Shown: positions 29,265-62,589 of the stretch, piece by piece | How the letters are laid out: each line of letters opens with the position of its first letter | Numbering within the stretch: position 1 is the first letter of the stretch | Source: Haloterrigena salifodinae | GTDB lineage: Archaea > Halobacteriota > Halobacteria > Halobacteriales > Natrialbaceae | Length of the DNA: 64,000 nt | Direction: 5' to 3' | Assembly (NCBI RefSeq): GCF_003977755.1 | Contig: NZ_RQWN01000004.1 | Coordinates: 372,001 to 436,000 of the forward strand | Program-made: the position numbers and the translations under genes | The notes under the pieces: model-generated | What the model was told of the DNA's origin: nothing | Seen by the model: only the letters and a program-made list of their open reading frames with translations | Database searches by the model: none

Positions 29265-30132
29265 AATCTCGCGCAGCCGCCTGATCCGACTCGAGTTTCG
29301 AGGACCGCGAAGAAACACCGCGATAGATACTATCGCTCAGTCTCCGGAATTATCGTGCTCGAGTCTATATTTGGCATACTATTCGTTTGGACGACACGTT
29401 CGGTGTGAGCAGACTCGAGCAACCGGGCGGGAACGAGTTCACAGCGCTGATCAATCGCCTCTTACTGGCCAAGGCTGAGGCCCGTTCTGGGAGACGGATT
29501 CGGGAGTCTCCCTCGAGACTGGACAGTATTTCGTTCCGCTACCGCTCATAATTCGAACGTATAATTCTCGGAAGAGGAATAAAGTGTACATAGATCAAAT
29601 GGACAGAGTATTGTCCAGGTTTTTCGAATAATACCCCAACAATACGTATTTATTCAACCACATCTATAGTAAATATGGTCTTAGCATCCGGTTCGAGAAC
29701 CACGGAATCAGCGCAACAGATGAATTGTCTATAGGAGAATAATTCCGTGTATTTACTCGCTATCAAATATATTATCGCTGCCGAGGAAGCGACTAGTACT
29801 CGGAGACCTCGGCCGATCTACCGGCCTCCATTATCTAAGTTTCTAAGATATGAAGCATAGGTTTCGATCGTAGATAATCTGATCGAACGCGGAATTGTCT
29901 CAGGGCAAATCACGCGCTCAATTCTGGTGGACGACCGGGGACGACTCGGCTACCGGACGATCGATGTGACGACGTAGTGTCGCCCGGACAGCGTGAACAG
30001 CGTCGCCCTGAGGGTGCCGTGCGAAGCGGTGTTCCCACTATCCAAGCCCCGAACCGAATCGACGTGCCTTCGCGATGACTGCCCACGAGACGGCTGGACG
30101 CTCCCAACGCACACGCTCGCGTTCGGATCTCG
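29265..30132. other. Convergent intergenic region with an AT-rich island
   Basis: About 870 bases between two genes that converge. A hairpin GGGAGAC/GTCTCCC lies at 29489-29512. Bases 29560-29880 are clearly AT-rich compared with the genes around them and carry no protein-like frame. At 29834-29852 there is a TCTAAG-type site (TCTAAGTTTCTAAGATATG) that resembles the repeats upstream of parA. The right part (29900-30132) has GC-rich sequence but only shadow frames. Confidence 0.5.
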
Positions 30133-55788: not shown

Positions 55789-57021
55789 TTAGTCGTCATC
55801 CCAGTTCTGCATTCGGCTATCCTCCAGAATGGTCTCGCGGACGACTTGCGGATCCTCGATGAGCCGATTTTGCAGATGGATCCCTCCCGCACTCCCCTTA
55901 TTGATCTTCTCGATCTCGACGACGCCGAGGAACGCCTGTTCTTTCAGGATGTCTCGGAACCGGCGAACCGAGAGAATATCCATATCGAGGTGTTCGCAGA
56001 TGCGCTCATACTGGTCGTACACGCGACTCGTGAGGAACGCGTCGTCGTCAGAGTTGACGCTGAGTTCGGTCAACGCGAGCAGCGCGGCCTTCGCCTGGGT
56101 GGGCGCACCGTTGACGAGTTCCCGGAAGCGGTCCTTTTCGGCGTGTTGTTGGGCCTGCCGGACGTGTTTCTCTCGGACTTTCTCGGCGCCGTCCTCGTAG
56201 GCGACCTCGCCGGCGTGGCGTAGGATATCGATGGCCTTCCGCGCGTCGCCGTGTTCCTGGGCGGCGAACGCAGCGGACAGCGGAATCACGTCGTCGGAAA
56301 GAACCCCGCCCTGAAACGCGTCCGCACGATTGAGCATGATCTCGCGGAGCTGGTTCGCGTCGTAGGGTTTGAAGAACAGTTCCTTGTGTTGGAAGCTGCT
56401 CTTGACGCGTTCGTTCGTATTGTCGACGTACTGGATTTTGTTGCTGATCGCGATGACGCCGATACTACAGTCGATCTTCCCCGCCTCCTCGGCCCGCGAG
56501 AGTTTCATGAGGAGACTGTCGTCGTTCATCAGATCGATCTCGTCGAGGATGATGATGGCGGAGTCAAACTGCGCGTCGAGCGTTTTCCAAAGCAGTTTGT
56601 AGTATTTTGACGTGCTGAGACCGGTGTGCGGGACGGTGATCTCGGTAACGGATTCGTCATTTAACTTCGCAGCGAGAGAAGAGATCGCCTGCGTTTCCGT
56701 ATTATCTTCAGCGCAGTCGATATACGCCGTCCCGATCGTGACACCCTCCTGAGCCGCACTTTGGGCGCGTTGACAGACGTGCCTCGAGACCAATGACTTC
56801 CCCGTTCCCGTCTTCCCGTAGATCATCACGTTTTCCGGAGAGTATCCGTGAACTGCGCCGTTCAGACGTTTCGCTAGCTTCGAAATCTCCTCATCGCGCC
56901 CGACGATTCGGTCGGCTTCGGGAACGTGGCCGATTTTCAAGAGATCCTTGTTCGAGAAGATCCGATGCCCCGATTCGAAGAGCGGATCATCGACGGAATC
57001 GGACGAGGAGTCGGGTGTCAT
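55789..57021 (-). CDS. orc1/cdc6: Orc1/Cdc6 family replication initiator
   Basis: A 410-residue AAA+ initiator. Walker A is YGKTGTGKS (68-76), Walker B is ILDEIDLM (158-165), sensor 1 is GVIAISNKI, and the C-terminal winged helix (about 320-400) includes YDQYERICEHLDMDILSVRR. It should bind the ORB repeats around it, open the origin and load the MCM helicase. The ATG at 57021 follows a TATA box (57051-57058 on the minus strand), and an ORB-like copy lies just upstream of that box, so the protein probably represses its own gene. Neighbouring repeats mean it is the dedicated initiator of this origin. Confidence 0.95.
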   Translation of the reverse strand: MTPDSSSDSVDDPLFESGHRIFSNKDLLKIGHVPEADRIVGRDEEISKLAKRLNGAVHGYSPENVMIYGKTGTGKSLVSRHVCQRAQSAAQEGVTIGTAYIDCAEDNTETQAISSLAAKLNDESVTEITVPHTGLSTSKYYKLLWKTLDAQFDSAIIILDEIDLMNDDSLLMKLSRAEEAGKIDCSIGVIAISNKIQYVDNTNERVKSSFQHKELFFKPYDANQLREIMLNRADAFQGGVLSDDVIPLSAAFAAQEHGDARKAIDILRHAGEVAYEDGAEKVREKHVRQAQQHAEKDRFRELVNGAPTQAKAALLALTELSVNSDDDAFLTSRVYDQYERICEHLDMDILSVRRFRDILKEQAFLGVVEIEKINKGSAGGIHLQNRLIEDPQVVRETILEDSRMQNWDDD

Positions 57022-59813: not shown

Positions 59814-60673
59814 TTGCTCGTACTTGGCGATCTCCACCTCGGCGAGGACGGATTCGACGCTGAACCGCATTTCTCGTGGGATCGATTCGACGCGATCCTC
59901 ACCGTCGGCGACGTCGCTCACTCCTGCGTGACCGTAACGGACGGAAAACCACAGCAGGGGGAACTGGTCGGTCTCGAGGAAGCGCGAGTGTTCTTTCAGC
60001 AGTTGAACGATCTCGGCGTCCCGGTCTTACCCGTCCCGGCAACCACGATTACCGACGACACGCGGAAGTGGTCCGCGAGCCGACGCGAGTGCGGAACCTC
60101 CATCGCGAGACGTATCCGATCGAGGGATACCGCGCGTTCGGACTTGGAAGCGAGACGTTCGATGCCGGCCAGGAGGTTCGATACGATCCCGACGCGGTGA
60201 CCGAACCGGACGATCCGGACGCATGGCTCGAGCGGGCGCTCGACTGTGCCGGTCGCGGCGAGGCGGACGCGACCCTCCCCGAGTTGCGCGAGCGAATCGA
60301 CGCGTTCGACGACTAGTTTGCTACTTACACCGGTCGGTACGAGACGCTCCGGTCGCTCACGACCGAGCGCGAAAGCGAAGCGAACGCCAGGCGGATCGCC
60401 TTGACTCACCTCCCGCCGTTCGATACGCCGCTGGACCGCGCCGCGGAGTCGGTCCCACGTATCGGTGGCCGCCACTGGGGATCGATCACGCTCAAGAACG
60501 GGCTCACCGAGTGCGATATCTCGTTCGTCGCGTGCGGCCACATTCACGAACGGGAAGGCGTCGCTACTGTCGCTGATACGCCCTGTCTCAATGCGGGCTT
60601 CCGGAGCGCCTACAACGTAACGCTCGAGGGTGACGATGTTTCGATTGCCGATGTCGAACCGCTCGAGTGGTGA
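59814..60673 (+). pseudogene. Metallophosphoesterase, frameshifted and with an in-frame TAG
   Basis: The frame starting near 59814 (MLVLGDLHLGEDG by a TTG, then AILTVGDVAHS) is a calcineurin-type phosphoesterase up to LNDLGVPVLPVP. At about 60036-60040 one base is missing: the sequence goes on in another frame as PGNHDYRRHAEVV, the family's GNHD motif. That frame meets TAG at 60314-60316 and continues unbroken as FATYTGRYETLRSL to LTHLPPFDTP and CGHIHEREG, the last metal motifs. So two separate lesions break an otherwise complete gene of about 285 codons. No good start codon is visible, so the 5' end may be lost too. Confidence 0.82.
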
Positions 60674-61246
60674 CGGTCGATTCGGAACGCAAGTGGATGT
60701 TCCAGTCCGTCTCTGTTAGTCTCCTCAGATTCTAATCTAAGTATCTTAGACTCATTTCTTAGGAAAGTTATGTGGGCAACAGTAGCAGATAACTTCGAAG
60801 CGAGGGTACCGATCCTGGCTGTCCAAGACCGTCAGTCTCCGGTCACGGGACCCTGCGGACGGCAAAGATATGTTGTGTTTCGGGTACCTCCCGCAATGGC
60901 TCTTGAGTTGGAATATCCGCTGAGTCCCTTACAATCGCACCTCTCACGAGGAGGCCGCCTATATCATTGCTGAGTCGAAGCAAGCGGAGATGTCTAAGAT
61001 ACATGTCTATGTTTCTTAGATATCTTATTTTGATGACTGGGTTCGATAACGTCTCCTTCGCCGTTATAATCCATGTTGTCTCTCGAACGTCAGCGAGAGA
61101 GTAGTATAATCAATGGACCTGGGGATTCCAGGTAAGTTTCTTAGATATGTTTCTTAGATATGGTCTATTGGGATCTTACTTAGGCATCATATTTGTATGG
61201 CTTATTTGGAGAACATTCATATCAACGTAGACCATCAGGGTTTCTT
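60674..61246. other. AT-rich region upstream of parA with repeated TCTAAG/CTTAGA motifs
   Basis: About 570 bases, much lower in GC than the genes around. It carries the repeats listed next and a possible TATA-like word for parA (ATTCATAT, 61214-61221, 26-33 bases before the ATG). A 67-codon frame at 60770 overlaps the repeats and is probably not a gene. Confidence 0.55.
60736..61162. repeat. TCTAAG/CTTAGA repeat array, candidate centromere (parS) or operator
   Basis: Copies: a perfect inverted repeat TCTAAG-TAT-CTTAGA (60736-60750), a further TTTCTTAGG (60754-60762), TCTAAGATAC (60993-61002), GTTTCTTAGATATC (61011-61024), and two tandem copies of GTTTCTTAGATATG (61136-61149 and 61149-61162) with a 13-base period. 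The tandem pair ends 85 bases before the parA start. Spaced palindromes and direct repeats before a ParA gene are what partition sites and autoregulatory operators look like. Related sites occur at 29834-29852 and 54274-54291. Confidence 0.6.
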
Positions 61247-62122
61247 ATGCTCTCGTACACCGTTTACAGCGAAGCTGGAGGCGTCGGGAAATCGTCTCTC
61301 ACGGCGAATCTCGCTGCCGCGCACGCTCGAGCGGGGCTCGACGTCCTCATCGTCCCGCTGGATCCCCAGGACGGCGACCTCAGCCGACTACTCGGCGTCG
61401 ACGACGAGCGCGCCGATCACGAAGCCGACAACCTCGTCCGTCACATGGTCGGCAGTCCTCGCGGATCGTTCGACGATTTGATCCAGTCTGCCGAAGGGAT
61501 CGACGTCATTCCGGAACACAACCTGCTCTCGGACCTCTCCGATTTTCTCACGCGCGAAAAACAGCAAGCCGAGAAGCTCGGTGACGCGTACAACATCTAC
61601 GCTCAACTCCAGCGCGTTCTCCAGGAGGGCGGCATCGCCGAGCAGTACGACGTCCTGATCTGTGACCCGCCGGCGACCGAATCGGATCACCTCTACAATG
61701 CGATTTACGCCACGCGGAACCTCGTAATCCCGGTCGAGCCCTCCGCGAAGGGCGAAGCCTCCGTCGACGGCCTTCAGCAACTCGCGACGAACTTCGCCGA
61801 TCAGATGGGTATCGAGGTCGGCGTCCTCGCTGCGGTGCCGAACGGATTCAAGGGAACGAACGATCAGGCGGAACTCCTCGAGGAAATCTCGTTCCCGACG
61901 CCCGAGGTAATCGGCGACCGAACGTCGCTGATGGAAGGCTGCTGGAAGCAGCAGTGCTCGGCGTTCACGTACCAGCGCGAGCACCGCGACTACCCGCGAG
62001 ATCACGAACTCGAGACGCTCGCCCAGTTCGATCGTCTCGCCCGTTATCTCGAGGAACAACGCGGAATCGAAGCGCCGAATCCGCCCGAACCCGGCGCGAT
62101 CGAGGACGAGGTGACAGCATGA
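61247..62122 (+). CDS. parA: ParA/Soj-family partition ATPase
   Basis: A 291-residue deviant-Walker ATPase. It starts MLSYTVYSEAGGVGKSSLTA with the Walker A GGVGKSS at 11-17, then LIVPLDPQDGDLSRLLG (switch region) and YDVLICDPPATESDH (Walker B). The ATG at 61247 is chosen because the in-frame extension to 61193 is not protein-like. ParA proteins move plasmid or chromosome copies along the nucleoid with a DNA-binding partner, here probably the product of the overlapping gene at 62119 acting on the repeats upstream. It fits a low-copy replicon. Confidence 0.94.
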   Translation: MLSYTVYSEAGGVGKSSLTANLAAAHARAGLDVLIVPLDPQDGDLSRLLGVDDERADHEADNLVRHMVGSPRGSFDDLIQSAEGIDVIPEHNLLSDLSDFLTREKQQAEKLGDAYNIYAQLQRVLQEGGIAEQYDVLICDPPATESDHLYNAIYATRNLVIPVEPSAKGEASVDGLQQLATNFADQMGIEVGVLAAVPNGFKGTNDQAELLEEISFPTPEVIGDRTSLMEGCWKQQCSAFTYQREHRDYPRDHELETLAQFDRLARYLEEQRGIEAPNPPEPGAIEDEVTA

Positions 62123-62589
62123 CCGGGTTCAAGAGCGGTGCGAGCGCTGACGATCCGTTCGGCGACGCTGACGAGACGGATGACGAACCCGAGACCGAGT
62201 CAGGGTCGGCGACCGAGTCGACCGACTCAGCGTCTCGAGATGAGTCCGAATCACTGGAGTCCGCTGGTCGCGACCAGCGCCAAGAGACGGACAGCGAATC
62301 GACGGCTGATAGCGAACCGACGACGGACGACGACTCGGCGACCGATAGCCGCGGCTTGCCGTGGATCTACGAGCGCAACAGCATCACGGACGGCCGGAAG
62401 AAGACCGTCCAACTGCACCTACAGAAGTCCTCCCTCGACCGCGAGCGCGATACGCGGTTGGAGATCGAGGACGTGCTCGACGAGTCGGTCAAGAAGGCCG
62501 ATCTCCGCGAAGCCGCGTTGCTCGTCGGCCTCGAGCACATCGATCAAGTCGCCGATCAGCTTCGCGAGTGGGGGTACGACTTCGACTAG
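62119..62589 (+). CDS. Acidic ParA-partner protein, possible ParB-type adaptor
   Basis: A 156-residue protein whose ATG overlaps the parA stop (ATGA at 62119-62122), so they are translated together. Residues 1-80 are a very acidic, Ser/Thr-rich disordered tail. Residues 84-156 form a conserved-looking domain (SITDGRKKTVQLHLQKSS, then RLEIEDVLDESVKKADLREA) with a strand-helix-helix pattern, compatible with a ribbon-helix-helix or similar DNA-binding fold. In many archaeal plasmids the gene after parA encodes the centromere-binding partner. No closer family recognised. Confidence 0.75.
   Translation: MTGFKSGASADDPFGDADETDDEPETESGSATESTDSASRDESESLESAGRDQRQETDSESTADSEPTTDDDSATDSRGLPWIYERNSITDGRKKTVQLHLQKSSLDRERDTRLEIEDVLDESVKKADLREAALLVGLEHIDQVADQLREWGYDFD

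Follow-up and report, generated by a model that had tools for sequence, protein, structure and literature searches.

The described partition systems closest to the locus reported here are SegAB of the Sulfolobales (PMC5120986, PMC12284271) and the type Ib delta/omega system of pSM19035 (PMC9499535). In the archaeal SegAB system, a ParA-type gene comes first and overlaps a second gene for a small site-specific protein, with the sites upstream; SegB is a ribbon-helix-helix (RHH) protein, its sites are two imperfect palindromes, and the system serves the chromosome. In pSM19035, a ParA without a helix-turn-helix (HTH) extension is paired with a small centromere-binding protein that carries an N-terminal Lys-bearing peptide, and the centromere consists of contiguous short polar repeats, the 7-bp WATCACW heptads, which overlap promoters. 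The archaeal plasmid pNOB8 uses three genes, aspA-parB-parA, with a CenpA-like ParB and a palindromic site near the operon that is read by a small DNA-binding protein (PMC5120986). Canonical ParABS combines ParA with a CTPase ParB and a parS site. The ParA superfamily as a whole is defined by a deviant Walker A motif, KGGxxK[S/T], with its signature lysine (PMC9178275). Type 1 McdA, a ParA-family ATPase that positions a protein organelle, the carboxysome, and uses no DNA centromere, does without this lysine, and its ATPase activity is high (PMC6328274, PMC8262871). Among the open questions named in a review of the field in archaea are the form of archaeal plasmid centromeres and the segregation of a halophile chromosome along with several megaplasmids (PMC5120986).

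The locus examined here lies in a 64,000-nucleotide stretch of Haloterrigena salifodinae DNA (contig NZ_RQWN01000004.1, positions 372,001 to 436,000), referred to as the window, in whose own numbering all positions are given. The parA gene (61247-62122, + strand) encodes a 291-aa protein that is placed among the ParA-family ATPases by its AAA_31 (Pfam, 2.7e-17) and CbiA matches and by the family alignment; ParA starts here and below are predicted ones. The following gene (62119-62589, + strand) overlaps parA by ATGA and encodes an unnamed acidic protein of 156 aa, which we propose to be a centromere-binding protein and call the partner. In front of parA is a non-coding gap of 573 bp (60674-61246; 45% G+C), and upstream of it, at 59814-60673, lies an apparently broken metallophosphoesterase gene with several short overlapping frames. 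Near-identical loci are present on two complete plasmids, pHTS220 of H. salifodinae, where the gap is 99% identical, and pHTUR01 of H. turkmenica; the latter carries an intact annotated metallophosphoesterase gene at the corresponding place (L022:769-1635). An Orc1/Cdc6 replication initiator gene (55789-57021, - strand) is the only one found on the 460-kb contig, which suggests that the par locus serves the same replicon.

The window system resembles SegAB and the type Ib systems in its gene order, cis site and small adaptor, and would work in the same way. As in type I systems, a P-loop ATPase of the ParA superfamily is encoded beside the adaptor gene, an arrangement recognized by AAA_31/CbiA and seen at 149 loci. 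As in type Ib, the ParA has no N-terminal HTH extension, its Walker A motif beginning at residue 8, and the repeats lie before the promoter of the operon or inside it. The segA-segB order, gene overlap and upstream palindromic sites of SegAB have their counterparts in the ATGA overlap and the boxes described below. We do not file the system under either heading because its ParA lacks the lysine that defines the superfamily and because our searches did not identify the partner as an RHH protein. It further differs from SegAB in having polar 13-bp arrays and many repeat words and in residing mostly on megaplasmids, and from pSM19035 in its period of 13 bp rather than 7 bp; the signature lysine is missing in comparison with both. 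Gene content excludes the AspA-ParBA system of pNOB8, the haloarchaeal operon having two genes with parA first. It also excludes the CTPase ParABS systems, as the partner has no ParB-type domain, although the general ParA-adaptor-site logic is shared.

The sequence-only reading had listed six TCTAAG/CTTAGA sites before parA, and all six are where it placed them: 60736 (+), 60745 (-), 60993 (+), 61015 (-), 61140 (-) and 61153 (-), the last two being 13 bp apart. The hexamer is not rare across the window, with 10 copies found and 10.9 expected, so the case for these sites rests on their clustering. Six of the 10 copies fall within the gap, whereas dinucleotide shuffles of the gap contained 0.44 on average and five at most, with none of 5000 reaching six. 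The 12-mer TTTCTTAGATAT has exactly three copies in the 4.96-Mb genome, all in the gap before parA. Elsewhere in the window, far from the 61247 parA, two direct TCTAAG sites lie 8 bp apart at 29834-29847.

The gap was then scored with a box model trained on loci of other species with the same repeat word (class A, see below), close Haloterrigena relatives having been left out. It holds 15 boxes above threshold, compared with a mean of 4.2 and a maximum of 9 in shuffles. The earlier description of the array was accurate as to the sites and the 13-bp pair and incomplete as to its extent, for the 15 boxes form three clusters. The array is polar: ATCTWAGAT-like boxes follow each other in 13-bp steps and turn around at 8-bp junctions, with the six sites as the strongest boxes. 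Both TCTAAG and CTTAGA had been noticed because the box core is ATCTWAGAT. Cluster 1 (60722-60764) has centres at 60726, 60739, 60747 and 60760, spaced 13-8-13, and its 8-bp junction is what had been read as a spaced palindrome. Cluster 2 (60992-61030) has centres at 60996, 61009 and 61017, spaced 13-8, and a weak box at 61022-61030. Cluster 3 (61138-61185) is a promoter-proximal polar run in 13-bp steps, with centres at 61142, 61155 and 61181 and a degenerate in-phase unit at 61168. Whether 150, 300 or 520 bp upstream of parA are taken, the strongest lag is 13 bp (z = 5.9 for the final 300 bp of the gap), and boxes extend to -521 from the gene. A putative TATA-like element at 61215-61222 (+ strand), some 30 nt ahead of the parA start codon, would be part of a leaderless promoter, judging by its position and by its likeness to elements at equal distance in relatives such as L051 (TTTCATATC).

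The 13-bp rule holds across the family. Over the 300 bp before parA in 111 de-duplicated loci, mean self-identity is 0.384, 0.363, 0.340 and 0.323 at lags of 13, 26, 39 and 52, respectively, against a baseline of about 0.25 at most other lags. The repeat is individually significant against dinucleotide shuffles in 108 of the 111. Loci added later, with more distant partners, gave 0.372 (35 loci) and 0.349 (30 loci) at lag 13. The signal peaks from -175 to -50, where cluster 3 of the window is located, has died away at about -400 and is not seen within parA. By a fitted model, each locus has about 16 units. The dominant spacings in the 40 class A loci are 13, 26 and 39, at which polarity is mostly conserved, while at a spacing of 8, or of 8 increased by 13, 26 or 39 (21, 34 and 47), polarity mostly changes, as it does for 16 of the 19 pairs at 8 bp. 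Of these 40 loci, 23 have a relaxed junction, compared with 0.5 in shuffles. In class B, pairs 13 bp apart share their orientation in 261 of 264 cases. Dyad symmetry of the single box is modest (p<=0.05 in 33/111 loci), and this, together with the polar arrays, led us to reject a perfect palindrome as the unit. In 75 of 141 loci, against 0.7 in shuffles, another element, GTCTGAC, is located at about -42 from the start codon of parA and immediately precedes a TATA-like box. It is independent of word class, being carried by L051, L164, L183 and others, is absent in the window, and may belong to a leaderless promoter or be a second operator.

While the spacing is constant, the repeated word is not. 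At least nine word classes, defined from k-mers and clustering, share the 13-bp spacing: class A, ATCTWAGAT, as in the window; class B, TGAACA/TGTTCA, for example in Haloferax; class C, TTAGSCTAA, at L002, the second system of the same genome; and further words CAGTAWTACTG, ACAGATATCTGT, AGTMTAAC, AGTACAAC, ATTGAACCAAT and ATAGCTAT. One universal word is ruled out, Haloferax and others using different ones. Instead, the classes follow the tree of the partner domain, requiring 8 changes where shuffles require 51.6, and class B forms one clade with a support of 100/100. As a single host family (f1) holds A, B and C, the words track the tree of the partner and not that of the host, and the partner groups differ from one another both in the word and in a VxLxL-like stretch of the protein. 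The two systems of the H. salifodinae genome have different words. Co-resident pairs with partner identity above 50% number 5 of 126 against 13.5 expected, a value as low in 15 of 5000 shuffles, although the count is approximate because the genomes were picked among those with more than one listed hit and a small number of loci is missing.

We propose that 60674-61246 is most likely the cis-acting partition site (centromere) of a megaplasmid and that its promoter-proximal part probably also serves as the operator of the par operon. A candidate centromere before parA had been suspected from the sequence, and comparison supports it well: the array recurs, its word co-varies with the partner, and co-resident systems differ. 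In the mechanism that we envisage, the 62119 protein would bind the ATCTWAGAT boxes through its C-terminal domain and line up along the polar arms at 13-bp intervals, the arms meeting at the 8-bp junctions. The N-terminal MTGFK..G peptide of the protein, carried by a flexible acidic linker, would touch nucleoid-bound ParA and trigger ATP hydrolysis, and the resulting ParA gradient would move the plasmid copies apart. Binding near the promoter would allow the partner to regulate its own operon. Every plasmid lineage would possess a box word that is read by the partner of that lineage, with word identity setting compatibility, so that several megaplasmids could share a cell. One 13-bp-phased architecture with many words, one word per partner lineage, is our proposed answer to the questions raised in the review (PMC5120986), and differing words tied to their own partners would account for the way in which several plasmids are kept distinct within a cell.

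The strongest competing explanation is that the array acts solely as operator of the parA operon, through which the partner autoregulates, with the centromere elsewhere or overlapping it in part. An operator alone would yield the same comparative pattern, the peak of 13-bp periodicity lies beside the promoter, and SegB sites (PMC12284271) and pSM19035 heptads (PMC9499535) both overlap promoters. We nevertheless consider it unlikely, since the family signal continues to about -400 and the boxes of the window to -521, and since some 16 units per locus exceed the need of an operator. Moreover, divergence of words and avoidance of similar co-resident partners are what would be expected of centromere incompatibility. 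Iterons, too, are typically tandem repeats, and with an Orc1/Cdc6 gene some 4-5 kb away the array might be an iteron-type replication origin bound by this initiator. Such an origin is highly improbable, however, because, with few exceptions among the loci read, the array directly adjoins parA, its word follows the par partner, and no replication initiator is annotated in the stretches of about 2-3 kb around parA in annotated plasmids. Chance clustering in an A+T-rich gap, with which the G+C of the gap and the lack of window-wide over-representation of the hexamer would agree, is already refuted by the same 13-bp phase in the relatives and by the failure of all gap shuffles to reach six sites.

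The ATPase that would act on the proposed centromere has SEAGGVGKS as its Walker A motif, with alanine in place of the signature lysine. SE[A/S]GG, with Ala or Ser at this position, is found in 209 of 210 family ParAs, and KGG is present in the four further ParA-like proteins encoded by the H. salifodinae genome. Lys168, in the motif PVEPSAKG, is invariant (210/210). An hmmsearch alignment places it opposite the lysine in PAEASTKG of McdA (position 171 of the 6non/6noo chains), the segment being weak (E 0.05) and the whole profile matching at 6e-5; the two proteins differ at the Walker A motif, SGG in McdA and SEAGG here. The McdA structure paper reportedly names Lys151 as the stand-in for the signature lysine; with a 20-residue tag this would presumably be the residue at position 171, which we take as a lead only. 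An AlphaFold model of the ParA was poor (pLDDT 48), and its PDB matches, Soj, McdA and MinD, merely restate the family. Two variants were seen among the ParAs. Distant members (L196 on G123:C5 and the similar L208, L224 and L228) have the Walker A WSESGGVGK, and the best lag of L196 is 12/24 and not 13, a possible variant spacing. A subgroup comprising L183, L186, L188, L191-L193 and L197-L200 has SESGGT[FY]KTT and is paired with the ACAGATATCTGT word.

The partner consists of an N-terminal MTGFKSGA..DPF, an acidic linker (37% D/E in the window protein) and a conserved C-terminal domain of about 80 aa; the N-terminal peptide is conserved across the family as MTGFK/M.G..DPF. It had been called an atypical ParB, and rightly so: profile searches found no relative in Pfam, NCBIfam or PDB, and no ParB-type Pfam domain was detected in the window partner or 18 relatives. 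A partner profile search against PDB chains gave no match to SegB up to E=10, and hhalign comparison with haloarchaeal RHH proteins gave nothing convincing, which is weak evidence either way. The AlphaFold model, from nine sequences, had a mean pLDDT of 51, this model and that of ParA being poor because only a few sequences were used. Because the fold searches were negative or weak, an RHH fold for the partner is a guess rather than a result. By analogy, the VxLxL-like stretch, which differs by partner group (TVQLHLQ in A, RVPLFLQ in B, MVQFYLR in C and RIEAHLR in the ACAGAT class), could be the putative DNA-reading strand of such a protein. We found no description of the partner family in the open-licence literature.

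The further suggestion of a new type of partition system holds in part. The missing signature lysine and the unassigned partner speak for it, but the gene order, overlapping start and upstream cis array are common to SegAB and type Ib. We offer only as a tentative proposal that this is a distinct, Haloarchaea-confined type, in which an ATPase without the signature lysine would use the McdA-like Lys168 for the cross-dimer ATP contact and a centromere-binding protein of unassigned fold would act on polar 13-bp arrays, with diverged, mutually compatible words making up a par-based compatibility code for megaplasmids. The 13-bp-phased architecture proposed above would make it possible to predict the compatibility of haloarchaeal plasmids from sequence, supply centromeres for stable vectors and test whether a DNA-partition ATPase works without the lysine held to be the mark of its family.

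The partner family was found in 256 of 391 sampled haloarchaeal genomes, representing 68 of 84 genera, and in 142 plasmid records. Across the phylum, relatives occurred in 54 of 393 genomes, all 54 belonging to the same order. At 149 of 149 loci a parA gene lies directly upstream of the partner gene. Viral-contig scans returned few or no relatives and a phage collection none. Members are also present on contigs of 2.9-4.2 Mb (G068:C1, G033:C1, G037:C1 and G143:C1), which indicates that a chromosome or an integrated plasmid sometimes carries the system. A 179-kb contig (G000:C7) carries four Orc1/Cdc6 genes together with a KGG-type ParA-like gene and is perhaps a composite replicon.
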